Assembly (NCBI GenBank): GCA_017450435.1
Contig: JAFSTO010000043.1
Coordinates: forward strand, 43,047-107,046
Direction of reading: 5' to 3'
DNA length: 64,000 nt
Source of the DNA: Paludibacteraceae bacterium
GTDB lineage: Bacteria; Bacteroidota; Bacteroidia; Bacteroidales; Paludibacteraceae
Shown here: positions 5,145 to 25,001 of the stretch, piece by piece
How positions within the stretch are numbered: the stretch's first letter is position 1
Layout of the letters: each line of letters opens with the position of its first letter
The notes under the pieces: model-generated
What the model saw: the letters and a program-made list of their open reading frames with translations, nothing else
What the model was told of the DNA's origin: nothing
The model's database searches: none
Made by a program: the position numbers and the translations under genes

Positions 5145-5206
5145 CAAAATTACAATATTTTCAATGTATTAACAAGAAACGCAATATGCTTTATAGCATG
5201 TTTTGA
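5145..5206 (-). promoter_or_regulatory. Leftward promoter with upstream dyad, shared with the SIS-gene promoter
   Basis: Reading leftward, the -7 box TAATTTTG lies at 5152-5145. The first 16 bases from the -7 box match the SIS promoter at 24842 exactly. Exactly 39 bp upstream (counted box start to element start) is a 23-base element, 5184-5206, with an ATGCT...AGCAT dyad, differing at one base from the element at 24881-24903. It probably binds a regulator common to both units. Confidence 0.75.
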
Positions 5207-5270
5207 AACATTTGCATGTAATATATAGATAATAAGTGCGTTATAATTTGCAAAATCGTCTTTTTCGGCA

Positions 5271-5340
5271 TTTCGTAATGTTTCGAAATGACGATTTGAA
5301 ACGTTTTTCTTTCGTAATTTGAAAAAAAGTTGTAACTTTG
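5271..5340 (+). promoter_or_regulatory. TTTCG-box operator candidate and DeoR-gene promoter
   Basis: Boxes TTTCGTAA and TTTCGAAA lie at 5271-5289, followed by ACGATTTGAAACG. The same order and spacing recur before the SIS gene at 24968-25000. The -7 box TAACTTTG is at 5333-5340, about 46 bp before the regulator ATG, so autoregulation is plausible. No clean -33 box is seen. Confidence 0.6.
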
Positions 5341-5386
5341 CAGTGTTCTACTATGTGTAAATTTGTCAGATAAACCATATTTAGTC

Positions 5387-6163
5387 ATGAACACATCGTC
5401 AGCCAAGGAGCGCCGTGCGCTTATCCTAAAAAAAATAGAGACTGAGCACGAGGTTATCGTCACCGATCTCAGTCGTGAAACAGGCATTTCGGAAGTAACA
5501 ATCCGTAAAGATCTGACAATCCTTCAGCGTCGCAATCTTCTTGTCCGTACTCGTGGCGGCGCAATGCGCCGGCCGGTGGAGAACATTTCTGAGGACACTG
5601 CAATCAGCAAAAAGAGTATGTTCAACTTCAAGGAGAAAGAGCGGATAGGTGAAGAAGCTGCCAAGATGATACAGGACGGCGACCATATCATGCTCGACTC
5701 CGGCACCACAACGCTTGAGGTGGCGCGACATTTGGATAATTTCAACAACCTGCATATATTGACAAACGCCATGAATATAGCCACCGAGCTGATGCGTTAC
5801 AAGCGCTTCGAGGTGATGCTTCTCGGCGGCACGGTGCGTGTCAACTCACATTCGATGGTGGGACCGATGGCACTGGCGAACCTGAAGAACTTCAGCGGCT
5901 ATAAGTTGTTTCTCGGTGTGGACTCATTTTCGCTAAATGATGGTGTATCAACCCCCAGTTTGGAAGAGGCGTTGCTTAATCAGATGATGATACAGCAGGC
6001 GGAGACGGTGATAGCGGTGTTCGACTCATCGAAGTTCAACAAACGCAGTTATTCACATGTGGCAGATGTCTCGCAATTGGATTGTATAATTACCGACAAG
6101 GCTATTCCGGTGGGAATGACCGGCAAACTCAGGCAAGCGGGAATTGAGGTAAGAGTAGTGTGA
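5387..6163 (+). CDS. DeoR-family transcriptional regulator (AgaR-like by context)
   Basis: The protein has 258 residues from the ATG at 5387; a TTG eight codons upstream is ignored because family members begin close to the winged helix. The N-terminal DeoR helix-turn-helix is clear (RRALILKKIE, VTDLSRETGISEVTIRKDL, LLVRTRGGAMRR). The sugar-phosphate-sensing DeoRC domain follows, with GDHIMLDSGTTTLEVARHL, ILTNAMNIATEL and VMLLGGTVR. Family members repress sugar operons and are released by a phosphorylated intermediate. It is divergent from the amidohydrolase gene, and its control region is mirrored before the AgaS-like gene. It is therefore the best candidate regulator of both units, with tagatose-6-phosphate or galactosamine-6-phosphate as a possible effector (inference). 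Confidence 0.93.
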   Translation: MNTSSAKERRALILKKIETEHEVIVTDLSRETGISEVTIRKDLTILQRRNLLVRTRGGAMRRPVENISEDTAISKKSMFNFKEKERIGEEAAKMIQDGDHIMLDSGTTTLEVARHLDNFNNLHILTNAMNIATELMRYKRFEVMLLGGTVRVNSHSMVGPMALANLKNFSGYKLFLGVDSFSLNDGVSTPSLEEALLNQMMIQQAETVIAVFDSSKFNKRSYSHVADVSQLDCIITDKAIPVGMTGKLRQAGIEVRVV

Positions 6164-6211
6164 ATGAATGTGCGGGCAGAGCCCTAATGTGGAATGTTGA
6201 AAATGCGAAAC

Positions 6212-6243
6212 AAAAAGGCTTCGGACAACCCCGAAGCCTTTTT
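6212..6243. terminator. Bidirectional intrinsic terminator between convergent genes
   Basis: Arms AAAAAGGCTTCGG and CCGAAGCCTTTTT surround a short loop. A-runs and T-runs on both sides let it serve both the DeoR gene and the converging secreted-protein gene. Confidence 0.9.
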
Positions 6244-6293
6244 GTTTTATCTGAACTTTGTACATTGTACATTGTTCCTTTGTACATTGCTTG

Positions 6294-9200
6294 TTACTTC
6301 ACTCTTACGCCGGTAATGGTGTAAACAGCGCCGTCGCGACGGATGTAAACCTGACCGTTCATGAAGAACTTCTCAGCCTTCGGAGCCTCATTGAGGTTGT
6401 CGAAGCCTGTTGCGGGTCCTTCATCTGCATGAACTTTAACGGCAGTGAAGTAAACGGACTGACTAACGCGTGTGATGTAGAACTCGGTAGCACCTACTCC
6501 GATTGCATTTATATGGATGTCAAGTGTCTCTATTGCTTTGGCTACAGTGGTAGCAGCTGAGCCGACAACCTGTGAACCGGCGCGGTCAAGGGATACTTGG
6601 AATGCTTGACCATCCTTTGGATTGCTGCTTGCAAAGCCGGTAATGCTAATCACGTCGCCGGCAGCCAAAGGACGATTGAGTTTGCAGAGAACATATTTCG
6701 AGTTTGTCTCACTCGGATTGCCATCAAGCTTATAGCCGAAGAGCTCTGTTCCGCTCATAATCTCAAACTTGTCTGCACCGAAGATGATTGTACCGCCGGT
6801 AGCCGCCGTCTCTGTATTCTTTGCGATGGTCTCGGTTACGGTATAAGCGAAGTAGGTGTCGTCAATCGGCGTTCCAAGAGTGATTGTGCTTGTTGTTGGC
6901 GCAGGAGTTACACATGAGTTGTTGGGCTTGACAGTTGCGTATGCATAGAACATCTCTTTAGATGCGGAAAGTACATATAAGTTCTCTGCGTAGTCAAATG
7001 CGAGACCATCAATGTTATTACCGAAGATATTTTCGGTCCTATATGCCTCGGTAAGTGTGGGGACACCAGTCTCTTCATCGTATGCAATGTTATATACAAC
7101 AACGCGGCTCTTGGTAGGAATAGCAAGTAATGTCTTGCTTTCGTTGATAGCAATAACACCACGATATGTTGTTACATCGCTTGACTGCGGGAGAACATCG
7201 GTGTTTGTACCGCTTTGTATAACGTAGTCGCGTACACCTGCTGCAGTAAGGTGATATACTGCTGCCCAAGTATCATATCCCCATCGGTGTTGACAGCCCC
7301 AGAAACCGCCCCGACCGTCAGATACAAACTGGTTGTCAGAAATACCGAGATCGTTGTCTCCACTAACAGTAACGAATGTGTCCGGTTGTTGAGCATAGTT
7401 AGTAGCGTTGCCTATGGCGTATTTATTGATACTACCAGTAGTTGCGGATGCAACAAAGTTATCTGCAGTGTAGAGCACTTTCTCTGCGCCCTGACCTTCT
7501 ACGGCCATAGATGAGATGGTAGTGTAAGTCGTTCCTTTCTGAGCAAGGTCCAGTACAGGAACAAAATCGGCAGATGGGTTAGCAGGATCCATTCTGTAAA
7601 CACCACCCCTGGTAGCATCCATACTATTGATATATACATATCCGTCTTTGTCAACTACAATGCGTTTGAAAGCTGTACGATCACTTGCCGTCATGTCTGT
7701 AAGTCCTCCGAGATAACCTGTTGTACCTTGCGAGGTAACGTCGTTTAGAAGTGCGTCATAAATGAATACACCACGTGTCATTGCTTTTGTGCGTGCAGTT
7801 GCACCATCGTTTGCACCATCTCTGGATTCTGATACATATATACGTCCGAAGTAAGGATTCTCGGGGTTGTTGTCAATAGCCAAGCCCTGAGGCAGATAAT
7901 AGTTGTATATACCATCAGTGTAATTGGTTATGACATTAGCCAATGTTGTGGTCGCATTAGATGTTGCTTTTACTGCCCAGTGGTATGTACCATCAGCCAC
8001 GTCGGAGAGGTCAATTTCAAAGCTGTTTGCGCCCTTGTTATAAGCGGAGTACGGAGCAGGGTAGGTTTTAATAACAACGCCATCGACATCAAGCAGCTGA
8101 ACTTCAACAGCCGTTGCTACTGCATTGAGCACATAACTTACGGTTGCTTTGTCATCTTCAACAGCGGATACTTGCAGACCGGAGGCGAAGATGTTAAGCT
8201 GTGTATCCGGAACTGCGGGACGCGGGTCAACCGGAGTCTCGGGTTTCTCGTTCTCGGCACCTACAGTATAGGCGATATCAACACGCTTGGCGGCCCCTGC
8301 ATACGGGAAATAGAAGAACGCACCTTCAAGAGCTGTACCATCCTCGTAGGTGTCAGTAGTAGTATAGGTAAACTTCAGTCCATCGGCAACCATATCTTGG
8401 AAACCGGCGCCGAGGTTGATTTGTGCAACCAGACCGGTAACGGCATTGGTGAACTCAGCCTCGAAGGTGAGAGTCTTGTCTGCGTTACGTGTGATGTTGT
8501 ACTCTATACCTGCCCACTGCACAGGATTGATAACTGTACCTTCTGTCAGGAAAGAGGTGGCACCATAGAATGTGGCGGGTTCAAGAGCAGGTTGCGGAGC
8601 TGCAAATATAATGCTGTTGAGCACTGCTTCTGACCATTGTGTTGCATTGGTGAGTTTTACAACATAATTGCCTGCTGCCGGTATAGTAATACTGCCAAGT
8701 TCTTTAATACCGGTATCCCAAGCCTGAGCTTCACCTACTGAACCGATTTCTGATGTGCCATCGGCAGAGAGTAGTGCTACTCCATAAGTATGACCATTAG
8801 AAGCGGTGAAGTCAATAGTAACATTGTAGGCACCGGCTTCTGCAAAACTTACATTCCATGTAGCGTATTCATTAGGAGCTGTGCCAGGTGTAAAAGCAAT
8901 TGCATTGTTAGCTACAGAGGCTCCGGAAGACAATAATGCATATGCCGGTTGAAGTGTACCCGGCAACGTAACAGAAACGCCTTGATAGTCTGCCGTGAAG
9001 ATGACATCTTTGAGTTTCATCGCCGACCATGCGGTAGCAGCGCGTACGCGTACCTTGTAGTTTCCGGCATCCAAGTCACTCAGATCCATGGCACCGATAG
9101 CGAATTGTCCCTTCTGCTCGGACGAACCCTTGTAACGAATAGCCTTAACCACATCATTAGATTGATTGAGAAGATCAAGCTGTACGCGCCAACTGTTGGT

Positions 9201-9470
9201 GTTATACACATCCACAGCGACATTGTACTTAATCGGTTCAATTGTTACTTCCCATTCTGCATAGAGAAGAGTGTCGTTGGAGCTGTCATGTGCACCCATG
9301 TCGAAGTACGTTCCGGCATAGTCTTGCCCTGCTTCAATAACAAAGTCCGGCATCTCCTCGGAACGATAACTTACGTTAGAAACATCCAACGTAGCAGGTA
9401 GGACGACAGTGGCTGCCACCATACCGGCTGCAAACAGCGTCGCAGCGCAAAAAGATAGAATCTTTTTCAT
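6294..9470 (-). CDS. Large secreted protein: CBM-like modules, beta-propeller-like region, C-terminal tag
   Basis: The protein has 1058 residues with a signal peptide (MKKILSFCAATLFAAGMVAA). Two or three jelly-roll modules, resembling carbohydrate-binding domains, occupy about residues 20-420 (repeats of the type GNYVVKLTNATQWSEAVLNSIIF). A fibronectin-like stretch is at about 425-530, followed by a beta-propeller/NHL-like region at about 535-880 (GRIYVSES, DKDGYVYINS, YTADNFV, LAFDYAENLYVLSAS). Another beta domain precedes the C-terminal tag NGQVYIRRDGAVYTITG. It has no recognisable catalytic motif, so binding or display is more likely than catalysis. It has its own promoter at 9524-9554 and is last in the leftward array, ending at a strong terminator. 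Its 27-base leader nearly matches that of the gene at 34366. Confidence 0.75.
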   Translation of the reverse strand: MKKILSFCAATLFAAGMVAATVVLPATLDVSNVSYRSEEMPDFVIEAGQDYAGTYFDMGAHDSSNDTLLYAEWEVTIEPIKYNVAVDVYNTNSWRVQLDLLNQSNDVVKAIRYKGSSEQKGQFAIGAMDLSDLDAGNYKVRVRAATAWSAMKLKDVIFTADYQGVSVTLPGTLQPAYALLSSGASVANNAIAFTPGTAPNEYATWNVSFAEAGAYNVTIDFTASNGHTYGVALLSADGTSEIGSVGEAQAWDTGIKELGSITIPAAGNYVVKLTNATQWSEAVLNSIIFAAPQPALEPATFYGATSFLTEGTVINPVQWAGIEYNITRNADKTLTFEAEFTNAVTGLVAQINLGAGFQDMVADGLKFTYTTTDTYEDGTALEGAFFYFPYAGAAKRVDIAYTVGAENEKPETPVDPRPAVPDTQLNIFASGLQVSAVEDDKATVSYVLNAVATAVEVQLLDVDGVVIKTYPAPYSAYNKGANSFEIDLSDVADGTYHWAVKATSNATTTLANVITNYTDGIYNYYLPQGLAIDNNPENPYFGRIYVSESRDGANDGATARTKAMTRGVFIYDALLNDVTSQGTTGYLGGLTDMTASDRTAFKRIVVDKDGYVYINSMDATRGGVYRMDPANPSADFVPVLDLAQKGTTYTTISSMAVEGQGAEKVLYTADNFVASATTGSINKYAIGNATNYAQQPDTFVTVSGDNDLGISDNQFVSDGRGGFWGCQHRWGYDTWAAVYHLTAAGVRDYVIQSGTNTDVLPQSSDVTTYRGVIAINESKTLLAIPTKSRVVVYNIAYDEETGVPTLTEAYRTENIFGNNIDGLAFDYAENLYVLSASKEMFYAYATVKPNNSCVTPAPTTSTITLGTPIDDTYFAYTVTETIAKNTETAATGGTIIFGADKFEIMSGTELFGYKLDGNPSETNSKYVLCKLNRPLAAGDVISITGFASSNPKDGQAFQVSLDRAGSQVVGSAATTVAKAIETLDIHINAIGVGATEFYITRVSQSVYFTAVKVHADEGPATGFDNLNEAPKAEKFFMNGQVYIRRDGAVYTITGVRVK

Positions 9471-9523
9471 AGTGTTTTAAATTTTGGTTAATATTGTAGT
9501 TAGCATGTTTTCGTAAACGTTTG

Positions 9524-9560
9524 CAAATATAACATTTTATTTTCGTGCAACAAAACGAAA
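9524..9560 (-). promoter_or_regulatory. Promoter of the propeller/CBM surface-protein gene
   Basis: Reading leftward, a TTTG at 9554-9551, a 19-bp spacer and a -7 box TATATTTG at 9531-9524 match the Bacteroides consensus. The -33 box lies between inverted TTTCGT (9541-9546) and ACGAAA (9555-9560), which could be an operator. Confidence 0.75.
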
Positions 9561-9608
9561 AAGCATATTTCTGCAAAAAAATGTTACTTTTTTGTTGGTG
9601 AAAAGTGT

Positions 9609-9650
9609 CGCCGAAGCACTCCGTGCTCTTAACCACAAGAGGCTTCGGCG
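9609..9650 (-). other. Three-way-junction-like structured element between two surface-protein genes
   Basis: Outer arms CGCCGAAGC (9609-9617) and GCTTCGGCG (9642-9650) enclose two smaller hairpins, GCAC/GTGC (9616-9626) and CTCTT/AAGAG (9626-9641). It lies just behind the stop of the beta-helix gene. No U-run follows directly, so it may be a 3' stabiliser or processing site rather than a plain terminator. Confidence 0.5.
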
Positions 9651-9658
9651 CGTTCATG

Positions 9659-11803
9659 TTACTTGATTTCTTGTCCGAGAGTGTTATATACATCGTCGCC
9701 GCGGCGTATGAGCAGCTGTCCGTTACGAATGACTTTCGCCGTACGGGTATCAGCACTCACGTTGTCAACATCAAGAGTGACATTGATAAAGAAGTAACCG
9801 CCGAACTCTGCCCAGTCAGGATTGCCTGCAGGACGGAAATAAACGGTTTTTTCGCCGGCATGTGCTGCGTCAACAACATATTCCTTACCAATACCTGCAG
9901 GATACCATGTCTCGTCTTCTCCGGAAACACCCACGACCTTGATACTCATGTCGGTTTCCAGCGTGGCATTGACAGTGTACTCACCTGCAAGTTCAGGGTT
10001 CTCAACGAACATATATTCGTCCGTCGCAGCCCATTCGGTCATGGAGCCTACAAGGTAATAGGTCGGCGGTTCGGGACACTCCGTTTCCTCAATGACCACA
10101 TCGTAGATTTGAATAACAGTTCCTTCTTGTGCATAACCGAAGTCGAGAATGAGGATACCGTTACTGCCTTGTTCTCCGACTACGCCGGTAACCACTTTGT
10201 CATAAGCAAACTCTTCTGACGCGGCGATATTGACGGATTGGTTCTCATAGATGACGTTCGGCAGATTATTGTCGTCCTGCCATTTGAGGGTAATGCCTGT
10301 GACATCTTTGTTCGCCAGCATCTTTAGTGCCACGTGATAGCACTTGCCGTCCTCAGCGTGTATGCCGTGGTATTTGACTTGCGCCTGCCATTGTCCGTAT
10401 TTGCCTTGCAAGATATACACTTCTGCCTTTTGCGTATTAGGATCATAGCTCAGATAAGAGAGCGTCTCTTCCTGCCAGTCGGCATTGCCGAACCATGTTT
10501 CCCATGGTCCGAGGTCAGCTGCCTCGGTGTAAATATATCCGTAGTGCCATCCATCGCCTCCTTGTCCGTCGGGACGGAAATAAATGGTATAATCACCGGA
10601 ACGGGTAACCTCATAGTTATTGTTTACACCTGTGGGATACCAGTCGGTATCGGCAATTGACAAACCGTCGGATTTGACAATCTTGAACGCGTTGCCGGCG
10701 TACAATGTCATTGATATCATATACTCGGCTTCGTTCGCCGGATTTACCGATAGTTTATATCCGGGCTGAACTTCCCATTGTGTAATATCACCTACCATAT
10801 AATACTCCATCTTCGGAATCCATCGTGGGTCGCCGATGTCAGACCCTTCGGAACCGGTACCGAGCACGGGTGAGCCGCCTTGAATACGATAGTCAGCATT
10901 AGCAGCATCCACGAACATAGGATCGGATTGAATACAAGCTGTAATAGTCGGACCGCTGTAAATACCTGTCATAGCATCATTCGTGTAGTTGTAGGTCAGA
11001 CAGTTTTTTACTTCGCCATTCGTGTTATATACCGCACGACCGCCTGCATACTCCTCCGGCATCATAAAAATGCAATTGGAAACAATGGGAGAAATGTTAG
11101 TAGGCACTTTGACTGCACCGTAATCAATGTTCTTCACTTCGCAATTATAAAACGTGCAATGGTCAATGAGCACCGAGCCTGTTGTGGCCTGGACATCAAT
11201 CACACCCAAAGACGGTGCATTGGCATCCGTAGTTATATTGGCGAATGTGGAGTTAGTGATTTCCAACCCCTCTATGCTTGCGTATTTCAGCGAAATACAG
11301 TTATACAGATTATCGTGGAAATAGCAGTTGTTAATCACAATTGAGTCCAACTGTCTGTCCGAGCGGGTATGGATAATTGCAGTGCTCTTCTGTTTCCATC
11401 CGAAAAACTCACATCCTTCCAGAAAGACCTTTTTACCGGTAGTGCCATCCGCCGGAACAATAATCTCGGAATATGATGCCAAGTCGCTGAGGTGACCGCA
11501 GTCAAACTTGATATTGTAGAAACGTGCCACACCTCCTGTTTTTAAACGAATAGGCACCTTAGGTTGTACGATAACTTCGGCACCATTCTCCGCCATGACA
11601 GTCACGTCCTTGCCGTGAAAAGCGATATAATCGCTGTTCGACTCAATATATGTACCTGCCGCCATAACGATAACATCACCTGAGCCGGCACTTGCCACCG
11701 CTTTACGCAATGCGTCCGATGTCCCCGTATTGATGTTTATCACAGCTGCATTCGCTACTAACGCTACCAGCATTGCAGCGAAAAGATTAAATAACTTTTT
11801 CAT
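9659..11803 (-). CDS. Secreted beta-helix protein with SusE/F-like starch-binding-type domains and C-terminal tag
   Basis: The protein has 714 residues with a signal peptide (MKKLFNLFAAMLVALVANA). A right-handed parallel beta-helix covers about residues 20-325, with repeating NNCYFHDN, ITNSTFANI, IDHCTFYNC and VSNCIFMMPEE turns. Two domains of the SusE/SusF type (YYMVGDITQW near 332, YYLVGSMTEW near 585, each ending in an IYFRPDG or VYFRPAG strand) flank a jelly-roll module. The tag NGQLLIRRGDDVYNTLGQ closes the protein. The helix is closely similar to that of the gene at 40273. The gene lies 33 bp behind the phosphoesterase gene, so they are probably cotranscribed. Beta-helices include polysaccharide lyases, but no catalytic residues are assigned here. 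Confidence 0.75.
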   Translation of the reverse strand: MKKLFNLFAAMLVALVANAAVININTGTSDALRKAVASAGSGDVIVMAAGTYIESNSDYIAFHGKDVTVMAENGAEVIVQPKVPIRLKTGGVARFYNIKFDCGHLSDLASYSEIIVPADGTTGKKVFLEGCEFFGWKQKSTAIIHTRSDRQLDSIVINNCYFHDNLYNCISLKYASIEGLEITNSTFANITTDANAPSLGVIDVQATTGSVLIDHCTFYNCEVKNIDYGAVKVPTNISPIVSNCIFMMPEEYAGGRAVYNTNGEVKNCLTYNYTNDAMTGIYSGPTITACIQSDPMFVDAANADYRIQGGSPVLGTGSEGSDIGDPRWIPKMEYYMVGDITQWEVQPGYKLSVNPANEAEYMISMTLYAGNAFKIVKSDGLSIADTDWYPTGVNNNYEVTRSGDYTIYFRPDGQGGDGWHYGYIYTEAADLGPWETWFGNADWQEETLSYLSYDPNTQKAEVYILQGKYGQWQAQVKYHGIHAEDGKCYHVALKMLANKDVTGITLKWQDDNNLPNVIYENQSVNIAASEEFAYDKVVTGVVGEQGSNGILILDFGYAQEGTVIQIYDVVIEETECPEPPTYYLVGSMTEWAATDEYMFVENPELAGEYTVNATLETDMSIKVVGVSGEDETWYPAGIGKEYVVDAAHAGEKTVYFRPAGNPDWAEFGGYFFINVTLDVDNVSADTRTAKVIRNGQLLIRRGDDVYNTLGQEIK

Positions 11804-11836
11804 ACAATCGAATTATTGGTTACGTTAATAGATGTA

Positions 11837-14800
11837 TTATTGCACTTCCATACCAAGTATGTTATATACATGGCCGTTCTTGAGGATAAATATCTGTCCG
11901 TTACGGATGAACTTCTCGCCTTCCTGCATCTGTGCTTCCACGTTTTCAATATCCACGAAAGGAGCAGTATGCGGCATGGTGCGTGTAATCTTCATCGAAT
12001 TAATGAGGTTGGCTGTGCCATTGGTGTTAGCCGTGTAGGAGTTGATATAAATGCCGTCTGCTTTCACGGTGAATTTGGTGAACGAAGGAGCACTCGGCTG
12101 TCCGAACATGCCGGTGAAGAGGTCGAAGTAGTTCGCTACATCATGGTGGCTACCGTCGTATAGCAGAGCACGATCGGTGGTGTACTTCTCCTCCATCTTC
12201 TCACGGCTGTACGGATAGTAACGTTTGCGTCCGCAGGTAGCGCCGATGAAATACATCGTACCATTGTCGGTGCAGTATGTGCCGCCCTCAATGCCCGTCA
12301 TGTTGGTATTGGTGTTGACTTCCACATGCGTAGTGTCGGTTACGGCACCCTCCACTACGGTACGTGTATCCGGATTAACCGGCCCGATAACCTCGTAGCA
12401 ATGGTCGTGCCCCTGAATGGCAAGGTCAATCTCACACTCCTTCAGGATAGGCAGCATAATCTTGCGGAACAGAGGTATCTCACTGTCAACAGAGTGTCCG
12501 GAACCTGAGAAGATATTCTTGTGCGAAAGCGTCACACGGTACTTGGTGTTAGGATGTAATGCTATCTGCTGCTTGAACCAGTTAGACACATCTGTCGAGA
12601 GATACGTGGATTTCATAGAAGTCTCTCCGCTTGACGAACGCCACCAGTCTTGCAGCGAATAGACGAGGAATAGAACATCGCCATATACGAAGCTATAGGT
12701 TATACCATGGAACTGCGGGCGATACTCCTCAGGCACAGACATTGCGAAATCGGTGTTCGTGTTGAAATGGTAATCATAGTTGAGCAACGGGCTGTCATCA
12801 TGGTTGCCGTCGGTAGGCACTATCGGCATCTTCATTATGACGGGCTTGATACTCTCCTCAAACCAGCGTTCCCACTCCCATTCGGAGTTGGCGTCAGTTC
12901 CTGTCTCTACGAAGTCACCGGGGAAGAGGCAGAATCGTGCGTCAGGCACTGTGTTGGCTGCAGCGGTGGCACACCACTTGGCGTTCTCTACGTATTCGGC
13001 ATCCTGTATATGGCTGTCGGACATGTAAAGGAACGAATATTCGCCTTGTGCCGCATTCTGCGTACGGAAATGTGCTATCTTGCTCCAATGTCCGTCATAT
13101 CCTACTCGCCAGCTGTATGCGGTACCCGGCGTTAGGTTGGTAGCCATAGCTTTATGACTGACATAACGGAAGGCAGTCTTCGACGCCATACCGGTAGCTT
13201 TCAATAGACCGGAGGTGGACACGGCGTAACGCAGAGGCACGGTAGTCGTCGCCTCGGCATCCAGTGTTAGCACGTCGTCACCGGCAAAATCAGCCGCAGT
13301 GGCATACGCCTTGGCAACGATCTGCACCTTGCCTTCGGTAACACCTTCGTTGGTGAACCAAGCGAACGCCATGTTGGTACGCGGATTACCGTTGATGTTA
13401 GCCACCATGTTATACGGCTCTTCTTTGCCAACCAGTTTTGTTGCCGCCTCATACATAGCTGCAAGTTTTTCGTCGATGGTGGCAATCATCTCGTCAGTCG
13501 CAGAGAAACTATCCACGCGTGCCGCCTCTTTTGCCACCCAGAAAGGAATGAACGACGGGATGGTATAGTCCTCAATCTTATACATCGTGTCGGCTGCCAG
13601 TACCTGAACAGGGTAGAGTACGGGCGGCTTAGGTGTGATAACAGCTACTACAGAATCTTTAAATCCGCCATCAACGCTTGTGGCGCGTATGATAGTTGTG
13701 CCTTCGCTAACTCCGGTAATCGTACCATGGTTGTCCACCGTGGCAATAGCGGTGTTGGCGCTTGACCAGTTGAGCGTACGGTTGGTAGCGTTGCGCGGAG
13801 TGAAAATCACACTTGCCGCAGCCATGCTCTCTACGTGCAGAGAGATTGTGTCCTGAAAGATATCAAATCCCTGCAGCGGTATGACCGGTGCATTGGGGTC
13901 ATACTCGTATGCACCTACATCCGAAGAGTTTCCCTTAGGACGAGCGACGCCGTTGATGTCTGAAGCAGGCGCCTTGCTGTCCAGACCTTTGTCTATCAAG
14001 AAAGAACCGGCTTCAATTGACCAGTCGGCTGCCTGCATCATTGCAATCTCTGCCGCATTGGCGGGCACACCGACAAAATTAGTAGGAGCCACAAAATGCG
14101 GACCGTCGGCTGCGTCGTTGTCGGCATTCAGCGTCAGGCTGACAAACGGCTCGGAGTTGAAGCCTTGGTCGGCAATGTTATTACTGGACGGAGCCCCCAA
14201 AATATAGTTGGCCGGCTCTGCAAAACCTTCCTCCGCGCGGTTGCCCCACATCACGGAGTTGAATACATACCCGTCGGAGTGAATACCGGCATACTTTGCA
14301 CCGTAGTTGTTAGTGAAAGTACAGTTGATTACCTCGCCAGCAGGGTTATACACGCCACCGGAGTTAGGCCAGCTATCGCCTGCCGTATTGTTATACAGCA
14401 CGCTGTTGCGGATACTGCCGCCACGCAGCACAACAGAAGCATACATGCCCTGGCAGCCACGGATGATACAGTTGTCAATCACGGCACCCGTATTGTGGAT
14501 AGCACCGCCGGAACCATTAGCCGTACACAACTCTATGAGACAGTTGCTGATGACGGTTGGCAGCGTCTTATCCGCTATGTCCACGTAAATAGCACCACCG
14601 GATGACAGCGAATGACAGTCACGCATTATACAGTTGTTCACCGTCATGTTGCCGCGTATGTAGAAGGCACTACCTGACGACGAGTATTCGGCATGCTCCA
14701 GAATCAGACCATCGTACAGTAGCGGGATAGTAGGTTCTGCCTCTGCCTTGATTAGAATCTTGCCAAGGTCCGAACCGTCCATGATTGTCTGGAAGATTTC

Positions 14801-15365: not shown

Positions 15366-15385
15366 TTTTTTAGGGGGGAGGGCTT

Positions 15386-17224: not shown

Positions 17225-19753
17225 TTATTTGACGATTTTAATTGTGTTGAAGAGCTCTGTTGTTCCGTCCGGTAGTACTTTGAATGACTCAAGTAAGAGG
17301 TGCCGTTTCTTCACTGTAACTCGCGTATAGGAAGGAGCACCCGGTTGCCCGAACATGCCGGTAAAAAGGTCGAAGTAGTTGTCCACCTGATGAATGTGTT
17401 TTGAGTCTTCCATCTGCTCTCGAGTTAGCGGAGTATATCGCTTTGTGCCGCATGTAGCTCCAATGAAATAGAGCGTACCTCGGCTCACGTTGTATATGCC
17501 ACCACGTTTGCCGGTGAGGTTACTAACGGAGTCAATTGCTACTGTCTCTTGTCCGTGTATATCGTTTAGCAAAGGTTTGCGTGTGTCGGAATCTACCGGA
17601 CCGATAATCTCATAGGTGTGGTCGTGACCTTGCATGAGAAGGTCTATATGACAATCTTTCATTACCGGCAACAGTGTTTGGCGAAGTAGGGGCGTCTCTT
17701 TATCGCGCTGGTGGTCAGAACCTGAAAAAAGGTTCTTATGCACGAGCCCGAGCCTCCATTTAGTATCCTTATACAACTGTATTTGTCGTCTGAACCAGCA
17801 GCCGAGGTCGTCTGTCAGGTAGGTGGATGTTAGGGTAGAGTAACTGTAATCGCCGCGCCAAAAGTCCTGTTCGGAAAAGGCGATAAGCAGCATGTCACCA
17901 TAAACGAAGCTATAATTGATACCCGCGAACTGCGGACGAACCGTCGATGTGAGATTGAAGGATGTGTCGGTATTGAAATGATAGGTGTAGTTAAGCAACG
18001 GACTATCGTCGTGATTGCCGTCGGTAGGCACTATCGGCATCAGTTTTAAAACCGGCTTCAAAGCCTCTTCAAACCACCTCTCCCATTCCCATTCGGAGTT
18101 GTTAGCAGTACCTGTATCAACAAAATCGCCAGGGAAGACGCAGAATCGTGCGTCCCTCTCATATCGCGCCACAGCCTCTGCGCAACGACGCGCATCATCG
18201 ATATACTCTTGGTTCTGTATGTGACTGTCGGTCATATATATGAAAGAAAATTCTTTCTCTCGTTTTGCTGCTGTACGAAATTGTCGGATGTCGCTCCATG
18301 CACCGTTTTTTCCTACACGATAAGAGTATGCAGTGGCGGGTTGCAAATCTGTTGCAACAGCCTTGTGGCAGACATATCGAAAAGCAGTATGTTTGTCTAA
18401 TCCGATAGTTTTCAGCAAGCCTGATGTAGAGATGGCATAGTGTAGCGGAAGCGTTGTTTGTTCGTTGGCGTTAACTGTCAACACGTCTCCTTGCTCAAAG
18501 TCTATTTCCGATGCGTTCGCCTTGCGAACGAGTTGTACTACGCCGCCGTTAACACCTTCGTTGGTGAACCAGTTGAACGCCATACGTGAAGTAGGGTCGC
18601 CATTGATGTTGGCAACAACGCAGTAAGGCTGTGAAGCAGGAACGAGTGTAGCAGTGTCGGATAGGAGAAAAGCAATGAAAGACGGAATAGTGTAATCGGC
18701 GGAACGATAGACCTTGTCACCGATGTGTAGGTCGTAAGGGAATGTGATTATTTGTGCGGGGTAGTCTTTTCTCAGTGTCGCCGGCGGCATTGCGGCTATT
18801 TTGTGTGTCGGAGCACCAATGCTGTAGTCGGCAGCGAGCATGATATTTTCTTCGTCAGGAGTAATTGGCACTCCGGCAAAAGTGGCAGGGTCTCGGAAGT
18901 GCGGACCGTATGGGGCTTCGTTGTCAGTGGACAGCCATGGCCGACGGAAGAAGTGTTCTTCGAACCCCTCATCAGCATTACTCATGCCGGATATGCTTTC
19001 GTCTGACACATAATTAGCGGGATCAACGAAACCGTATTCGTTTCTATTACCCCACATTATGCAGTCAAATACAGAGCTCTCAGAGTGGATACCACCATAT
19101 CTGTCTCCATAGTTGTTGGCGATAGTGCATCTGAGTAGTGTTCCGTTGAAGTTCGCCACCCCTCCTGCATCCGGCCAGTAGTGTCCGGTGGCAGTGCAGT
19201 TATGAATAAGGCAATCTTCAAGCACGGCGCTGAGTGCAGAAGCCTCCGGAGCCTCGCCTTCTATCAACACACCGCCAGCCTGTTCACCGCTGCAGCCTCT
19301 GATTATACAGTGCCGCATAGTCACTTTGCCACGAAGCAAAGCCGCTCCGCCTCGCTGGTGGTGACGGGCGTTCTGAAGCACAAGATTTTCAATCAGGGTG
19401 GGAATTTTGCAGTCTTGCTCGCAAGTGATGAGTCTGGTGTTAAGTCCTTTGCCGTCAAGTACTGTCATACCTGGGTAGCAAGCAACATCTTTATGACTCG
19501 GGTTGTCGTGCCGGCAACCGCCAATGATGGTTATTCCGTCTTTTAAGACTATTCCTTCGTAATATAGCCCCTCTGCAATGAAAAGAGTGTCACCTGCCTT
19601 GCAGTTGTCTATCCCTAACATTATGCTCGATTGAGCAGTCGCCCATGAGCGACCGTCAGCACCATCAGAACCACGAGTGCTGACATACCAATTAGTAGCG
19701 GCTGCAGTTGCTACCGTAAGACAAAAGTTAAGTATGAACAGGGCTCTTTTCAT
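17225..19753 (-). CDS. Secreted calcineurin-like phosphoesterase with N-terminal beta-helix
   Basis: The protein has 842 residues with a signal peptide (MKRALFILNFCLTVATAAA). A DUF1565-like beta-helix at about 20-315 (TNWYVSTRGSDGADGRSWAT, then GGVANFNGTLLRCTIANNYG-like turns) is followed by a fibronectin-like domain. The phosphoesterase motifs are TDSHIQ near 508, PGDFVDTG, DGNHDD near 578 and MQGHDHTYE near 708. It shares its whole architecture with the gene at 11837 apart from the Ig-like domain and the C-terminal tag, which are absent here. Local duplication followed by module loss or gain is the simplest explanation. It lies behind the PfkB kinase gene with a 179-bp gap rich in CTTAGA repeats. 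Confidence 0.87.
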   Translation of the reverse strand: MKRALFILNFCLTVATAAATNWYVSTRGSDGADGRSWATAQSSIMLGIDNCKAGDTLFIAEGLYYEGIVLKDGITIIGGCRHDNPSHKDVACYPGMTVLDGKGLNTRLITCEQDCKIPTLIENLVLQNARHHQRGGAALLRGKVTMRHCIIRGCSGEQAGGVLIEGEAPEASALSAVLEDCLIHNCTATGHYWPDAGGVANFNGTLLRCTIANNYGDRYGGIHSESSVFDCIMWGNRNEYGFVDPANYVSDESISGMSNADEGFEEHFFRRPWLSTDNEAPYGPHFRDPATFAGVPITPDEENIMLAADYSIGAPTHKIAAMPPATLRKDYPAQIITFPYDLHIGDKVYRSADYTIPSFIAFLLSDTATLVPASQPYCVVANINGDPTSRMAFNWFTNEGVNGGVVQLVRKANASEIDFEQGDVLTVNANEQTTLPLHYAISTSGLLKTIGLDKHTAFRYVCHKAVATDLQPATAYSYRVGKNGAWSDIRQFRTAAKREKEFSFIYMTDSHIQNQEYIDDARRCAEAVARYERDARFCVFPGDFVDTGTANNSEWEWERWFEEALKPVLKLMPIVPTDGNHDDSPLLNYTYHFNTDTSFNLTSTVRPQFAGINYSFVYGDMLLIAFSEQDFWRGDYSYSTLTSTYLTDDLGCWFRRQIQLYKDTKWRLGLVHKNLFSGSDHQRDKETPLLRQTLLPVMKDCHIDLLMQGHDHTYEIIGPVDSDTRKPLLNDIHGQETVAIDSVSNLTGKRGGIYNVSRGTLYFIGATCGTKRYTPLTREQMEDSKHIHQVDNYFDLFTGMFGQPGAPSYTRVTVKKRHLLLESFKVLPDGTTELFNTIKIVK

Positions 19754-19932
19754 TGCAGTCTTTGTAATCTTTTCTGTACCTAAAGCGGGAAAATAGTGTT
19801 TGTGGGGGCTGTGAGGTAATGAGAGGAAAGCTCCGGGTAAGACTTGGGAATAGCTTAGAGATCTTAGATTACTTAGATGTTTTTAGAGGACACAGAAGAC
19901 TAAGAGAGCTTAGCAGACATAGAAATATTAGA
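19754..19932. repeat. CTTAGA-rich intergenic repeat stretch
   Basis: Between about 19850 and 19930 the hexamer CTTAGA and close variants recur roughly every 10-12 bases. Similar short clusters occur at 3858-3880, 20893-20938 and 39829-39846. No gene or promoter is recognised here. Confidence 0.5.
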
Positions 19933-20883
19933 TTATTGGATTGTCCAGCCGAATCGTTCTTTGCCAATACGTTCAACGTCTTCCCTTGAGGTGAAAGCCG
20001 TTGTACCTCCGGCAGCAGTGGTATTGACAGCACCTGTCATGTTGCCATATTGCTGACACAGTTCCAAAGGTTTGCCTGCCGCGAGTTGCGAAATAAAGCC
20101 GGAGTTGAAAGAGTCGCCTGCACCTATGCAGTCCACCACCCGTGTGTTAAGCAAGGCAGCCTGTAGGCGGTCGGGTTTGCCTTTCTGCAAGAGTAGCGAG
20201 CCGCGACTGCCACATTTGATAACAGCAGCGTTGGCATAAGGACGAATCTTTTCAACCGCTTCTTCCAGAGTATTGCTTCGGGTGAGGAACTTCAGTTCAG
20301 TCTCATTGGGCATAAAGACGGTGAGCATCGGCAGAATCTCCTTGTAGTCAAGTTGCCATGTCTCTTTCGGGTCCCACTGACTATCAAGTGACGTGGTGAC
20401 ACCATTCTCATTGCAGAGCATAAGAATCTTCTTTAAGTCGCGCCGTACACCGCTTTGCATGAATATAGAGGAGATGTGAATGTGCTTGGTTTTTATGAAG
20501 AGTTCCGGATTGATGTCACTGAGCGACATATAGTCCATCGCTCCCTGGTAAGTCAGATTGGCCCGGTCTTCGTCATAACTCATACAAATAGTTGCTCCTG
20601 TTGCATACTTATTTTGCCTGATAAGATAGCGTGTGTCCACGCCTTTGTTGCGGAGACTTGTTTCTACGAGGTCACCAAAACTGTCGTTGCCGATCATCCC
20701 GCAGAATGCAACACGCGAGCCGAGCGCAGCGGCATTCGCGGCAAAAATAGCGGTACTACTACCTAAGGTGAGGGTCATTTCGCCGGCAAACTTCTCTTTA
20801 CCTATTTCCGGCTGACCTTCAATCTGATTGAGGATAAGGTCAACGTTAAGTTCGCCGAGGGCTACTATATCAAATTCTTTCAT
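19933..20883 (-). CDS. PfkB-family (ribokinase-like) carbohydrate kinase
   Basis: The protein has 316 residues, normal for the family. The N-terminal signature VALGELNVDLI, the glycine-rich substrate-binding stretch and the C-terminal GAGDSFNSGF with the catalytic Asp are all present. Members phosphorylate fructose, ribose, tagatose-6-phosphate and related sugars with ATP in the cytoplasm. Placement with AgaS-like and GatZ-like genes makes tagatose-6-phosphate kinase, or a kinase for galactosamine or GalNAc, the leading options; the sequence alone cannot choose. It lies 49 bp behind the esterase gene in the same leftward run. Confidence 0.9.
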   Translation of the reverse strand: MKEFDIVALGELNVDLILNQIEGQPEIGKEKFAGEMTLTLGSSTAIFAANAAALGSRVAFCGMIGNDSFGDLVETSLRNKGVDTRYLIRQNKYATGATICMSYDEDRANLTYQGAMDYMSLSDINPELFIKTKHIHISSIFMQSGVRRDLKKILMLCNENGVTTSLDSQWDPKETWQLDYKEILPMLTVFMPNETELKFLTRSNTLEEAVEKIRPYANAAVIKCGSRGSLLLQKGKPDRLQAALLNTRVVDCIGAGDSFNSGFISQLAAGKPLELCQQYGNMTGAVNTTAAGGTTAFTSREDVERIGKERFGWTIQ

Positions 20884-20932
20884 GGTGTGTGGTGTTTTAG
20901 AGGATTTAGATTTTATAGGGGACTTAGAGTGT

Positions 20933-22315
20933 TTAGAGTCTGTTTTTGAAGAACGTCATTATCATGCCGAACCAGTTGGAGGGGTAGGCATGTTGCATTT
21001 CCGGATAGAAATGGTATTCCTTGTCGGTTGACTGAAGATTATTGTATGGTGCAATGTTTGTATGCGGCGGACAAGTACCGTCTTGCAATCCGCTGGTGGC
21101 CAACACGGCACATGAGATACGTGTTGCAAGGTTCTTTGTGTCGAAATAGGAAAGAAATGCGTACATCTGTTCATCGGTCATCGAACCTTGATTTGCCTTA
21201 GCTGTTTCAGCGGGCCAGCCAACAATCTTGAAATAGTCGGGAAAATCGCCGAGGAAAGCGACATTTGGCGCAATAGCCGTAAACGGATAGTCGCTGAGCG
21301 CAGCAGCAGCGTAGCACAGTGCCCCGCCTTGACTGGATCCTTCAGCAAAAAGCTTATCCATGTTGCTAGTCTCACGTGTTGCCATAAACCGAATAGCTTG
21401 TACGCAGTCCATGAATGCTCCGCGGTAGTAATAGCTGTCTTTATCACCGAAATGATATGCAAACCAGTCTCCATATATATTGTCGCAATCTTCAGTTATT
21501 CCCGGGTTGTTGGTTGATGCCGGTCGATTGTTAAGATATTGTCCGCGATGCGAGAGATAGAACTCTGCAAACTGCGAAGAACTACCTCCGGAAGGACATT
21601 CGCACCGGCTTGTGCTGCCTTGAGTGTCGTAGCCGTAGAAATGGAAAATCACAGGGTGTTTGCCGCCGTCTTGCGGTTCGCAATAATAGCCTCTTATGGT
21701 AACAGGCTCTCCTGTCAGTCCGTCCGGAACAGACTGCATCTCTACAAGATACACTTTGCGTGCGGCACTACTCTGTGATGTTATTTCCGTCAGTGTGGCA
21801 TTCATTTCAACCTCTTTGAGCTGCTGTTTTGCCGTATTCCAAAAGTCATCGTAGTCCGTCTGCTTGTCGGGTGCCGAAACGATGTCAAACGGGTCGATAC
21901 CAAAGTAGAATGCTCTTACATTCTTATCGTTGACGAAGCATGTGGCACGATAGAACCCCGGTGCAAGATTCTCTTCTGTTGTGACAATAATGTCTTTTGA
22001 ACCTTTTGCCGGCACCTCGTCGGTAAGAGAGACTGTAGTTACAGCTTTTTTCGTATCAGTACTGAAACGAACCTCCACCTCGGCTTTCATTGCAACACTG
22101 TTATGATTAACAGCGTGAATGGTAATCTGAGGTTTGTTGCTGTAAATCCAGTCGTTGGTAACAGGTACCGTAAGAGTCAGCGGACTAAGGTCCGCCGGCT
22201 CTACGGTTTGTTCTTGAGGATTAGGTTCTTCTTGCGGAGAAGGTCCGTTACAGCCGCCAAAAGCAATAAGGTTGAGCGGCAGCAAAAATGACAATATCTG
22301 AAGTTTGATTTTCAT
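20933..22315 (-). CDS. Acetylxylan-esterase-like alpha/beta hydrolase lipoprotein
   Basis: The protein has 460 residues. The lipoprotein signal ends in IAFGGCNG. An N-terminal beta-sandwich (about 40-145) precedes an AXE1-type alpha/beta hydrolase. This has HFYGYD (oxyanion region), a nucleophile Ser in AEGSSQGGALC, an Asp in TSGLQDGTCPPHTN and a His in EMQHAYPSN, giving a complete triad. The family removes acetyl groups from sugars, including xylo-oligosaccharides and cephalosporin C. Between amino-sugar genes it may deacetylate O-acetylated glycans outside the cell (inference). Spacing to both neighbours is about 50 bp. Confidence 0.85.
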   Translation of the reverse strand: MKIKLQILSFLLPLNLIAFGGCNGPSPQEEPNPQEQTVEPADLSPLTLTVPVTNDWIYSNKPQITIHAVNHNSVAMKAEVEVRFSTDTKKAVTTVSLTDEVPAKGSKDIIVTTEENLAPGFYRATCFVNDKNVRAFYFGIDPFDIVSAPDKQTDYDDFWNTAKQQLKEVEMNATLTEITSQSSAARKVYLVEMQSVPDGLTGEPVTIRGYYCEPQDGGKHPVIFHFYGYDTQGSTSRCECPSGGSSSQFAEFYLSHRGQYLNNRPASTNNPGITEDCDNIYGDWFAYHFGDKDSYYYRGAFMDCVQAIRFMATRETSNMDKLFAEGSSQGGALCYAAAALSDYPFTAIAPNVAFLGDFPDYFKIVGWPAETAKANQGSMTDEQMYAFLSYFDTKNLATRISCAVLATSGLQDGTCPPHTNIAPYNNLQSTDKEYHFYPEMQHAYPSNWFGMIMTFFKNRL

Positions 22316-22370
22316 GGTTAAATTCGGTAGGATAAAATCGAAAAAAACGGATGGAATCAGAATTATCGGA

Positions 22371-23600
22371 TTACTTTAAGTAGTCGTTAAGGTTGACAAT
22401 GTTAAATGCGTTGTAATACTTATCCATATTGTGCTCAATTCGCATCAGAACCACTTCTTCTGCTTGTATGCCGAGCCTGTTTAGATTATCATACAACATT
22501 TGTCGTGCCACCAAAGCCTCCGGTTTCTGCCAAATATACCGACAGCCTGTTTTGACGAGCCATAATTGTCGTTCCGGCGTGCACTCACTCAAGTCTTTGC
22601 CAACCTCATCGCCATGTAGCCATTTTTTCCAGCGGTTAGACTCATATACACACTGCCATAGCACTTTGGTCATATTGCTGAGTTGAGCCACTTTTCCTTC
22701 AGCGTGTAGTCGTTTCTCCTCTTCTTCCAATTCAGCCAGAGCGTCATATTCGTTCATGGTAAACTCCGGACCGACATTAGCGGCTCCCATTCCTGCTTTC
22801 GGATAGTCCTCCGGGTTGTCCACGTCGTCAGAGTAGTGTCCTTTGATATAGCTGCCATAAGGCCGTACCTTAGCCGTCAGTTTGCGAGCGACATCGGCAT
22901 CGAAGAAAGTGGTGTGGAGGTCAGTACCTACCTTTCCAACGATAAAACATGGCCAAACATCATCCAATCCCACTTCATGGAGTCCGGCCTTTAGTCCTTC
23001 AAGGAAAGTGTCGAATGTCTTTTCGTCAGCCAGTCCGCCGTGCACTTCTTCCGTGCCGACCTCATAAGAGATAGGCGGCAAGCCTTGTGCTTTACGGAAG
23101 TTTTCAGCATGCAGGATGAGTTCTACAGTACGTTTTACCACTACATGTATGTCGATTATCTGTCCTTTAGGAAGGAATATATCCACCGTCGGGTCAACGT
23201 GAATAAGGTCGTATCCTGCAAGAATAGCAGCTTCGTAGCTCTTCTTCACGCCATTCATAGCACGCTCGGTGTCCCAACGTTCAATTGACTGCTTGTCTTT
23301 GAGCCATGGTCCTCCGTGGTCAATAGCAACAACATACGGACCGGTATAGTGCACAGCAGCAGCTTCGCGAGCAAGAATCTTTGTAAACTCCTCTTGTGTC
23401 ATACCGGTGTATCCGCCATCACAATCAACCTGATTAAGAGTGGTGGCGAAATAAATCGGAGCATTGTTCCGCTTAGCAGCGCGAAACGATGCTTTTATAA
23501 CCGACAACGAGTTGGGGCAGGCGGCAAACAAAGTGCGAGGAACCCCTGTTTTCTCCTTCAGTTCCTCCATTACGCGGAGGATGTTCTCAGTTTTTTTCAT
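22371..23600 (-). CDS. gatZ: GatZ/KbaZ-like tagatose-bisphosphate aldolase-family protein
   Basis: The protein has 409 residues, close to E. coli GatZ/KbaZ. Family landmarks include TLFAACPNSLSVIKASFRAA near the start, ATTLNQVDCDGGYTGMT, VVAIDHGGPW, LIHVDPTVD and YEVGTEEVHGGL; the His and Glu residues fit a metal site of a class II aldolase-like barrel. In enteric bacteria this protein supports the catalytic GatY/KbaY aldolase, but no such gene is present in this window. I recall family members reported as tagatose-6-phosphate/fructose-6-phosphate 4-epimerases, which would let this protein act alone. It follows the AgaS-like gene by 49 bp. Confidence 0.88.
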   Translation of the reverse strand: MKKTENILRVMEELKEKTGVPRTLFAACPNSLSVIKASFRAAKRNNAPIYFATTLNQVDCDGGYTGMTQEEFTKILAREAAAVHYTGPYVVAIDHGGPWLKDKQSIERWDTERAMNGVKKSYEAAILAGYDLIHVDPTVDIFLPKGQIIDIHVVVKRTVELILHAENFRKAQGLPPISYEVGTEEVHGGLADEKTFDTFLEGLKAGLHEVGLDDVWPCFIVGKVGTDLHTTFFDADVARKLTAKVRPYGSYIKGHYSDDVDNPEDYPKAGMGAANVGPEFTMNEYDALAELEEEEKRLHAEGKVAQLSNMTKVLWQCVYESNRWKKWLHGDEVGKDLSECTPERQLWLVKTGCRYIWQKPEALVARQMLYDNLNRLGIQAEEVVLMRIEHNMDKYYNAFNIVNLNDYLK

Positions 23601-23649
23601 AATAGTATTTTGTTTTAACTATGTGACAGTTTTGTTAGAGTGGGTGTTT

Positions 23650-24768
23650 TTATTCGTATATAGTAACCCCTTCCACCACACGATGAATATTCCCGCTGAC
23701 AGACGGTGCATCCGGGTTCAGTCCGTGTGCGAGAGAGGCGTAGTATCCGAGTAGTTGTCCGACAAGCACGTATGGTACGATGCCATAGAAGTCGGTTTCT
23801 GCCTTGCAATATGGCATTTTAACCACGAGGTCAGCTTTTACCTCCGGCAGACCCGGGTCCTTGCCGCTGATAACCAACACTTGTGCAACTGGTTTGTTGT
23901 TGCTGTCAACCTGCCTGACGAGGTCACGCTCATAGCGCAAGACCTTTTCTTCGTCAGTCATAAGATACACAACAATCGATTTGTCGTTAACCACAGCTTT
24001 AGGTCCGTGTCGGAAACCGAGGAAAGAATCGAACTTGCAGACCACGCCTCCATCGGTCAGCTCCTGCAGTTTGAGGTGGCACTCTTCAGCAATGCCTTTT
24101 AGAGCTCCGGAGCCGAGGAATACACCTCTTTCAAACGTCCGCTCGGCTATCTTGCGAAGGCGGTCTTCGTATTCAGAAATGACAAATTCGGCGTTTTTAA
24201 CGGACTTTTCTATCATTTGTTCATCGCTTTCCAAATTGTCGATATGACTAAGCATCATACATGTAAGAAGCATGGTGGAGAAGCTGCTTGTCATGGCAAG
24301 AGACTTGTCGTCGGTCTCCTCAGGGAGTAGCAGAAGAAGGATGTTATCCTTACCGCTTTCGGCAGCCAGTTTGCCGTTTTTGTTGCACGTTATATATATG
24401 TGTGCAATGTTTTTGCACAGTTTGTTGGCGATATTCACAGCCCCTACACTCTCCGGGCTGTTACCTGAGCGTGCAAAACTGATGAGTAGCAATGGTCGTT
24501 CAGAATCGAGCAAATACTCTGCATGAGTAATGAGATCGGTTGTCGGCACAGCTCGTACACTGGTCCATATACCACGCATTACCGGCTCGATGGCGTCACC
24601 AATAAAGGCAGATGTTCCGGCACCTGTCAGAACGATGTCGGTCTGAGGGGTGAGATACTTGTGCATGAAAGCACTAATCTCTGCTTTGTGTTCGAGCAGA
24701 GCATGATACTCCTTGCGCCACATCGCAGGCTGCTGATGAATCTCGTTGTAAGTGAAGTGAGTGTTCAT
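23650..24768 (-). CDS. agaS: AgaS-like SIS-domain sugar isomerase/deaminase
   Basis: The protein has 372 residues from the ATG at 24768; an in-frame TTG eight codons upstream is less likely. Two SIS domains are visible: the first around VLTGAGTSAFIG and LLISFARSGNSPESV, the second around VFLGSGALKGIAEE with the catalytic-type LQELTDGGV...FRHGPKAVV. This order and length match AgaS, which converts galactosamine-6-phosphate to tagatose-6-phosphate with release of ammonia. It heads the leftward operon and has a promoter matching that of the amidohydrolase gene. The GlmS-like C-terminal half alone would be a weaker explanation. Confidence 0.9.
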   Translation of the reverse strand: MNTHFTYNEIHQQPAMWRKEYHALLEHKAEISAFMHKYLTPQTDIVLTGAGTSAFIGDAIEPVMRGIWTSVRAVPTTDLITHAEYLLDSERPLLLISFARSGNSPESVGAVNIANKLCKNIAHIYITCNKNGKLAAESGKDNILLLLLPEETDDKSLAMTSSFSTMLLTCMMLSHIDNLESDEQMIEKSVKNAEFVISEYEDRLRKIAERTFERGVFLGSGALKGIAEECHLKLQELTDGGVVCKFDSFLGFRHGPKAVVNDKSIVVYLMTDEEKVLRYERDLVRQVDSNNKPVAQVLVISGKDPGLPEVKADLVVKMPYCKAETDFYGIVPYVLVGQLLGYYASLAHGLNPDAPSVSGNIHRVVEGVTIYE

Positions 24769-24841
24769 ATTCGTTGATTTTAGTTGTTTCAAATGGTTAT
24801 TAATAAGATTCAGTAAAGGTCAAAACCTTATAATTCGATTG

Positions 24842-25001
24842 CAAAATTACAATATTTAAATTGCGTTTCGAAAGTTTCATATATGCTTTATAGCATATTT
24901 TGATAAAAATGGTTCTAACACGCTGATTATATAATAATTATTTTTTTTAAAATATTTAGTTTTATTCTTTCGTAACCTTTCGAAAACGATTTCGGAACGT
25001 A
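24842..25001 (-). promoter_or_regulatory. AgaS-operon control region, homologous to the DeoR/amidohydrolase region
   Basis: Reading leftward, the -7 box TAATTTTG is at 24849-24842. A perfect ATATGCT...AGCATAT dyad lies at 24881-24898, within a 23-base element shared with 5184-5206. TTTCGTAA and TTTCGAAA boxes start at 24968. Distances from -7 box to dyad (39) and dyad to TTTCG boxes (87) are identical to those at 5145-5303. Confidence 0.8.

Follow-up and report, generated by a model that had tools for sequence, protein, structure and literature searches.

Shared operator and dyad arrangement in agaS and amidohydrolase promoters suggests a two-regulator AgaR/Cur regulon in a Paludibacteraceae bacterium

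A stretch of 64,000 nucleotides from a Paludibacteraceae bacterium (assembly GCA_017450435.1, contig JAFSTO010000043.1, forward-strand positions 43,047 to 107,046; referred to below as the window, with position 1 its first letter) was analysed to follow up a sequence-only reading that had pointed to two distant control regions, one upstream of an amidohydrolase gene that adjoins a DeoR-family regulator gene and the other upstream of an agaS-like gene. Both regions were found to carry a -7 box, a dyad of the Cur/BT4338 type and an 18-bp palindromic operator in the same arrangement, which is conserved in relatives. From comparative sequence data, it is fairly probable that these promoters belong to a galactosamine/N-acetylgalactosamine (GalNAc) regulon under AgaR and Cur, in which AgaR would repress through a palindrome bridged to half-sites and Cur would activate. 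A regulon with these two regulators appears well supported by the comparisons; the pairing of each protein with its site, the sign of repression, the looping, the effector and the orthology of Cur are inferred.

The two control regions, A (5143-5288) and B (24840-24985), agree at 94 of their 146 positions in an ungapped comparison, whereas 300 pairs simulated by a first-order Markov model with equal composition reached at most 74 (mean 63.6, s.d. 3.1). The identity falls in three blocks, all of them offset by 19,697 bp, namely 5143-5160 and 24840-24857 (18/18 identical), 5184-5206 and 24881-24903 (22/23) and 5271-5288 and 24968-24985 (16/18), with matches at just 7 of 23 and 31 of 64 positions in between. 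The -7 box TAATTTTG in the first block is on the minus strand, so both promoters face leftward, A serving the amidohydrolase gene and B serving agaS. The alignment bears out the earlier claims of shared spaced elements, of a 23-base dyad element with a single difference, and of equal distances from -7 box to dyad and from dyad to TTTCG boxes. The identity proposed at the -7 box also holds, though over 18 bases rather than 16, but the ACGATTT boxes said to be co-spaced lie at 5291 and 24986, an offset of 19,695, which is 2 bp less than that of the three blocks.

The TTTCG boxes were found to form one 18-bp palindrome, TTTCGWAANNTTWCGAAA, which fits the sites better than plain TTTCG direct repeats, and the latter description was rejected. 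Three exact copies are present in the assembly (2.65 Mb, 96% complete), at 5271, 24968 and 39941, all of them inside the window. The sequence-only reading had correctly placed TTTCG boxes before the DeoR-family gene, whose -7 box TAACTTTG is 62 bp from the operator start, and had overlooked the palindromic form and the third exact copy (39941-39958). The product of this gene contains DeoR-type sensor (PF00455, 176.1 bits) and helix-turn-helix (PF08220, 39.4 bits) domains above cut-off, and its best match among 11 NCBIfam families was AgaR (NF040755). As this score, 254.4 bits, is 5.6 below the equivalog cut-off of 260, the protein is termed AgaR-like and not an AgaR equivalog.

The distribution of the operator was examined in 151 genomes of the same genus, including that of the window, drawn evenly from a larger group; the named relatives are rumen or gut Bacteroidales, many of them filed as Paludibacteraceae. 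The exact operator was found in 47 genomes and the reversed-pattern control in 0 of 151. An agaR gene was detected in 56 genomes and agaS (at least 60% identity) in 58, with agaS accompanying agaR in all 56. Of the 47 operator genomes, 43 carry agaR, against 13 of the 104 others (Fisher p = 2e-21). In the agaR promoters of these genomes, the distance from operator start to -7 box was 62-64 bp in 43 of 49, 73 bp in two, and 42, 53, 54 and 60 bp once each, although selection of the -7 box nearest to 62 bp biases this count toward 62, and rows below 54% identity were left out, as were 7 of 56 promoters without an operator or -7 box. The proposal that the DeoR-family protein recognises the TTTCG boxes is supported, on comparative evidence, by an operator that tracks agaR over 151 genomes and precedes the gene.

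The operator listing covered 75 of 76 exact sites, 46 of them no more than 700 bp upstream of agaS or agaR. Among the remaining 29, the 26 that were read, window included, comprise 20 with a -7 box 134-153 bp downstream. Pfam matches were obtained for 18 of 20 proteins adjoining these sites: six DUF4874/DUF4832 proteins, six with DUF5123 and/or DUF4957 (one below cut-off), four purple acid phosphatases, one other metallophosphatase and one AXE1 esterase. The DUF4874/DUF4832 proteins behind the operator (in L263, L264, L266, L284, L289 and L299) are of secreted type, a hint that these domains may act on galactosamine-containing polymers. As both sugar-phosphate genes and secreted-type glycan-related genes have the same operator, the earlier suggestion that the two groups respond together is likely to be correct.

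The dyad consensus over the aga promoters corresponds to the published Crp-family motif of Cur/BT4338, wwwTATGTTnTAnAACATAwww, as given in PMC3878776. Deletion of this motif at fusA2 eliminated both BT4338 binding and activation (PMC6989115). Promoters with a dyad and -7 box were found in 110 of the 151 genomes, with one reversed-control match overall, and six are present in the genome of the window; the dyad is thus a global site and does not by itself define the aga regulon. The sequence-only reading had left open whether a second regulator or the DeoR-family protein itself binds the dyad. The motif match favours a second regulator and not the same one, and a regulator specific to this regulon was discarded in view of the motif and the spread of the dyad over 110 genomes. 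One protein in the genome exceeded the HTH_Crp_2 cut-off (L135:1486-2202; best solved relative 2gau) and is the candidate Cur/BT4338 orthologue; no dyad was seen by eye in its own promoter. The arms TATGCT/AGCATA are commoner in dyads that accompany an operator, with C/G at the arm position in 76 of 162 arm bases where an operator is present and in 7 of 44 where it is not (p = 2e-4; fetched loci).

All three elements occur together in 51 of 57 agaS promoters (68 before copies were removed) and in 41 of 51 amidohydrolase promoters, some of whose genes sit inside operons, the other six and ten each missing one element. This count allowed up to two mismatches in the operator and three in the dyad, with the -7 box 48-51 bp from the dyad start. 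The observed distance from dyad start to -7 box was 49-50 bp in the 51 agaS promoters and 49-51 bp in the 41 amidohydrolase promoters, and in an unconstrained search 51 of 52 promoters had a -7 box at a distance of 49-50 bp from the dyad. The elements are thus kept in relatives, which the sequence-only reading had named as a point on which its proposal could fail.

Half-sites of the operator were also found near the dyad. Among 81 Cur promoters that have an operator (20-190 bp upstream, at most two mismatches), 41 carry TTTCG immediately ahead of the dyad (-9/-8), against none of 22 that lack an operator, these controls being drawn from the listed dyad and -7 loci only (p = 3e-6). When a half-site on the -33 element (+25/+26) is also accepted, 45 of 81 promoters have one at either place, again against 0 of 22 (p = 7e-7), and 36 of the 81 have neither. 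The half-site at +25 from the dyad, on the -33 element, is found in 15 of 51 agaS promoters.

The spacing between operator and dyad falls into classes. For the amidohydrolase promoters it is 77-79 bp in 12, 86-89 bp in 28 and 99 bp in one, with no spacing of 80-85 bp among the 41, and these classes differ by about one helical turn. For agaS, spacings of 75-77 bp (33 promoters), 84-89 bp (13) and 111 bp (5) were observed, and 30 promoters of other genes include 11 at 99 bp, clusters at 85-89, 97-103 and 113-114 bp, and values of 43, 145, 147 and 154 bp. Of 103 promoters, two fell in none of these three classes; phase was tested within the classes, with relatives collapsed by rule at three levels, a search range of 30-180 bp and periods of 8-14 bp. 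The best period for the amidohydrolase class was 10.6-11.0 bp, with p = 2.5e-4, the floor of the test, at all three levels; near 11 bp, the class of other genes gave p values of 0.00025-0.002. Pooling the classes gave a best period of 11.4-11.5 bp, and lac loops in vivo fit 11.1-11.6 bp per turn (PMC1762422). A single period for all classes was not supported. The evidence for a phase constraint on spacing is good but incomplete, and an operator upstream of the Cur site at distances that tend to shift by about one turn suggests control by DNA looping, of which E. coli DeoR is capable (PMC8053113).

In the mechanism that we favour, the AgaR-like protein would bind the 18-bp palindrome and related TTTCGAAA half-sites, and a Crp protein of the Cur/BT4338 type would bind the dyad that starts 49-51 bp before the -7 box, activating when preferred carbon is scarce. 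An AgaR multimer may bridge the upstream palindrome to the weaker half-sites beside the dyad or on the -33 element, and would in this state exclude Cur and polymerase from the promoter. A galactosamine-derived sugar phosphate is predicted to release AgaR, and Cur could then activate once better carbon is gone. The more specific version, a looping switch that has the Cur site within or at the foot of the AgaR loop, is held by evolution to a single helical face for operator and promoter alike, and marks the DUF4874/DUF4832 and DUF4957/DUF5123 proteins as galactosamine-polymer enzymes, is offered tentatively, at somewhat under an even chance.

Several observations weigh against these proposals. 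The half-site on the -33 element taken alone (13 of 81 against 0 of 22) is not significant (p = 0.065), and the amidohydrolase promoters mostly lack it. A first half-site control, in which promoters whose operators are imperfect had been sorted into the control group, showed no difference (30/60 against 15/43, p = 0.16); it was redone with two operator mismatches allowed. The agaS spacings of 84-86 and 111 bp do not fit an exact turn, the best agaS period is 8.6-8.7 bp, and the agaS p value, which goes down to 0.00025, fails at the strictest level of collapsing (0.10-0.11). Within 8-14 bp, the class of other genes has its best period at 14.0 bp. On rapidly built protein trees, many of whose forks are weak, the minimum number of changes of spacing class is only four for agaS, against eight for the amidohydrolase. 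At the third operator site, a -7 box is found either at 135 bp without a dyad or at 195 bp with a two-mismatch dyad. The exact operator is absent from 13 agaR genomes, though several of these have operators with one or two mismatches, and both agaR and agaS are missing from three operator genomes (L282 in G069, L288 in G092 and L296 in G133), for which an incomplete assembly or another regulator is possible; the neighbours in two of the three are DUF4957/DUF5123 proteins. Finally, the operator has its centre about 53 bp ahead of the -7 box of agaR, a position that would suit an activator as well.

The same AgaR/Cur regulon might operate without a loop, AgaR acting from a single palindrome or touching Cur, with the spacings simply inherited insertions and deletions. 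The 36 promoters without half-sites and the failure of the agaS and other classes to follow the amidohydrolase period favour this explanation, which is nevertheless rather unlikely given that 45 of 81 promoters, against 0 of 22, carry a half-site at a fixed offset, that no amidohydrolase promoter has a spacing of 80-85 bp despite at least eight class changes, and that spacers of equal length are on average only 40-52% identical. Alternatively, AgaR could be an activator here, working together with Cur from a phased upstream site. The operator leaves the -7 and -33 elements uncovered and its position before agaR would be suitable, but the AgaR of E. coli acts as a repressor (PMC4694137), 15 of 51 agaS promoters have a half-site on the -33 element, and in four more distant Bacteroidales TTTCG repeats are found near the -7 box of agaR, so that activation is improbable. 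Recent duplication, with A and B as copies of one ancestral promoter whose equal spacing has no function, would account for the 18 identical bases at the -7 box and the equal spacing in this genome. However, the likeness is confined to the blocks, and because relatives conserve these blocks in both promoters at differing spacings, this origin is very hard to credit. Repression by AgaR with activation by Cur is retained as the preferred reading.

Outside the genus, an operator with one or two mismatches was found 126-127 bp before the agaS -7 box in a Barnesiella record and a relative, with a half-site (TTACGAAA or TTTCGATTCGAAA) about 25 bp before that box, near -33; no dyad was seen in these two promoters. 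In an Alistipes record the operator is 151 bp before the agaS -7 box. In four more distant Bacteroidales (L202, L204, L208 and L212), TTTCGTTTTGTTTC direct repeats close to the -7 box of agaR take the place of the distal palindrome. The E. coli AgaR consensus consists of TTTC repeats, which we take the TTTCGTTTTGTTTC repeats to resemble. These differences suggest that the form and place of the operator changed within the order. An order-wide search found agaR in 13 of 393 genomes (E 1e-55, own included). An order-wide role for the exact palindrome was rejected, as its 15 occurrences in 295 genomes (own included) equal the 15 of the reversed control and are background.

Features of the window are listed below. 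The leftward gene order from 24792 is AgaS-like, AgaZ/KbaZ-like, AXE1 esterase and PfkB kinase, followed by beta-helix and purple acid phosphatase proteins, and by family membership this set looks like a galactosamine/GalNAc route. In some relatives the amidohydrolase gene sits within the agaS operon. Between 6294 and 19753 there is a leftward run of genes for beta-helix (DUF4957/DUF5123), Big_2 and purple acid phosphatase proteins, the same kinds of protein as the operator targets in other genomes; a search of the window found no exact operator directly before 6294-9470 and one site with three mismatches at 9509. The third operator is a candidate to serve either the -7 box TAATTTTG at 40076 or the box TATCTTTG at 40136, the latter being 195 bp from the operator and its two-mismatch dyad 145 bp. 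A tRNA-Ser (gct) gene (39583-39670) is located just upstream of the third operator.

Table. Promoter elements and genes in the window
Feature	Coordinates	Strand	Basis or remark
Amidohydrolase (Amidohydro_2), first target	4013..5131	-	Pfam PF04909, 70.2 bits
-7 box TAATTTTG, amidohydrolase promoter	5145..5152	-	Position relative to dyad conserved
Cur-type dyad, promoter A	5184..5201		Fits published motif
AgaR-type palindromic operator, common to amidohydrolase and agaR promoters	5271..5288		Exact palindrome
-7 box TAACTTTG, agaR promoter	5333..5340	+	62 bp from operator start
AgaR-like DeoR-family regulator gene	5363..6163	+	NF040755 AgaR, 254.4 bits; Pfam DeoRC and HTH_DeoR
PfkB-family sugar kinase	19933..20883	-	PF00294
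AXE1-type esterase	20933..22315	-	PF05448
AgaZ/GatZ/KbaZ-like protein	22371..23600	-	PF08013; TIGR02810, 82.5 bits, below cut-off
AgaS-like SIS-domain protein	23650..24792	-	TIGR02815, 359 bits, below cut-off of 529
-7 box TAATTTTG, agaS promoter	24842..24849	-	Within the 18-base block identical in A and B
TTTCGAAA half-operator at -33 position	24866..24873		Same +25 offset from dyad in 15/51 agaS promoters
Cur-type dyad, promoter B	24881..24898		Matches promoter A dyad
AgaR-type palindromic operator, agaS promoter	24968..24985		Exact palindrome
Third exact AgaR-type operator	39941..39958		Exact palindrome
Candidate -7 box TAATTTTG	40076..40083	+	135 bp from third operator (136 in A and B); no dyad before box
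Alternative third promoter	40086..40143	+	Two-mismatch Cur-like dyad 40086-40103, 50 bp before -7 box TATCTTTG 40136-40143
DUF5123-containing secreted-type protein, third target	40273..43287	+	Domain match

If correct, these proposals would define an AgaR-type operator and regulon for a genus of rumen and gut Bacteroidales, would link the Cur network of carbon starvation to a repressor of the DeoR family, and would hint, through their regulation, at what several proteins of unknown function act on. The natural series of spacings over dozens of species would also make looping in Bacteroidota directly testable. No published AgaR regulon in Bacteroidota was found in literature searches on AgaR or DeoR with Bacteroides, Bacteroidetes or the aga genes, subscription papers being mostly outside reach. 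The novelty lies in known parts in a new arrangement.

The closest counterpart is the AgaR regulon of E. coli and other Proteobacteria, which likewise has a DeoR-family regulator beside agaS/agaZ-type genes, TTTCG-type boxes and an autoregulatory position; E. coli AgaR represses agaZ, agaS and its own gene (PMC4694137). Here, in contrast, the principal site, an 18-bp palindrome, stands far upstream; genes for secreted glycan-related proteins share it, and it is accompanied by a Crp-type site. In the Cur/BT4338 regulon of Bacteroides, sugar genes are preceded by this dyad consensus too, beside sites for local regulators, but the local partners named in the consulted passages of PMC3878776 and PMC6989115 are AraR, XylR and FucR, with no DeoR-family partner there, whereas the partner here would be of that family and the operator-bearing promoters favour TATGCT/AGCATA arms. 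In the GalNAc/mucin locus BT4240-50 of B. thetaiotaomicron, which also concerns GalNAc metabolism in Bacteroidales, a polysaccharide utilisation locus with a GalNAc kinase is described, and the AgaR/Cur layout was not seen in the consulted portion of that report (PMC11992087). Looping by E. coli DeoR and LacI joins operators over short distances, with a phase dependence of about 11 bp for lac in vivo (PMC8053113; PMC1762422). In those systems looping was measured, with DeoR operators about 600 bp apart, whereas here it is suggested by natural spacing.

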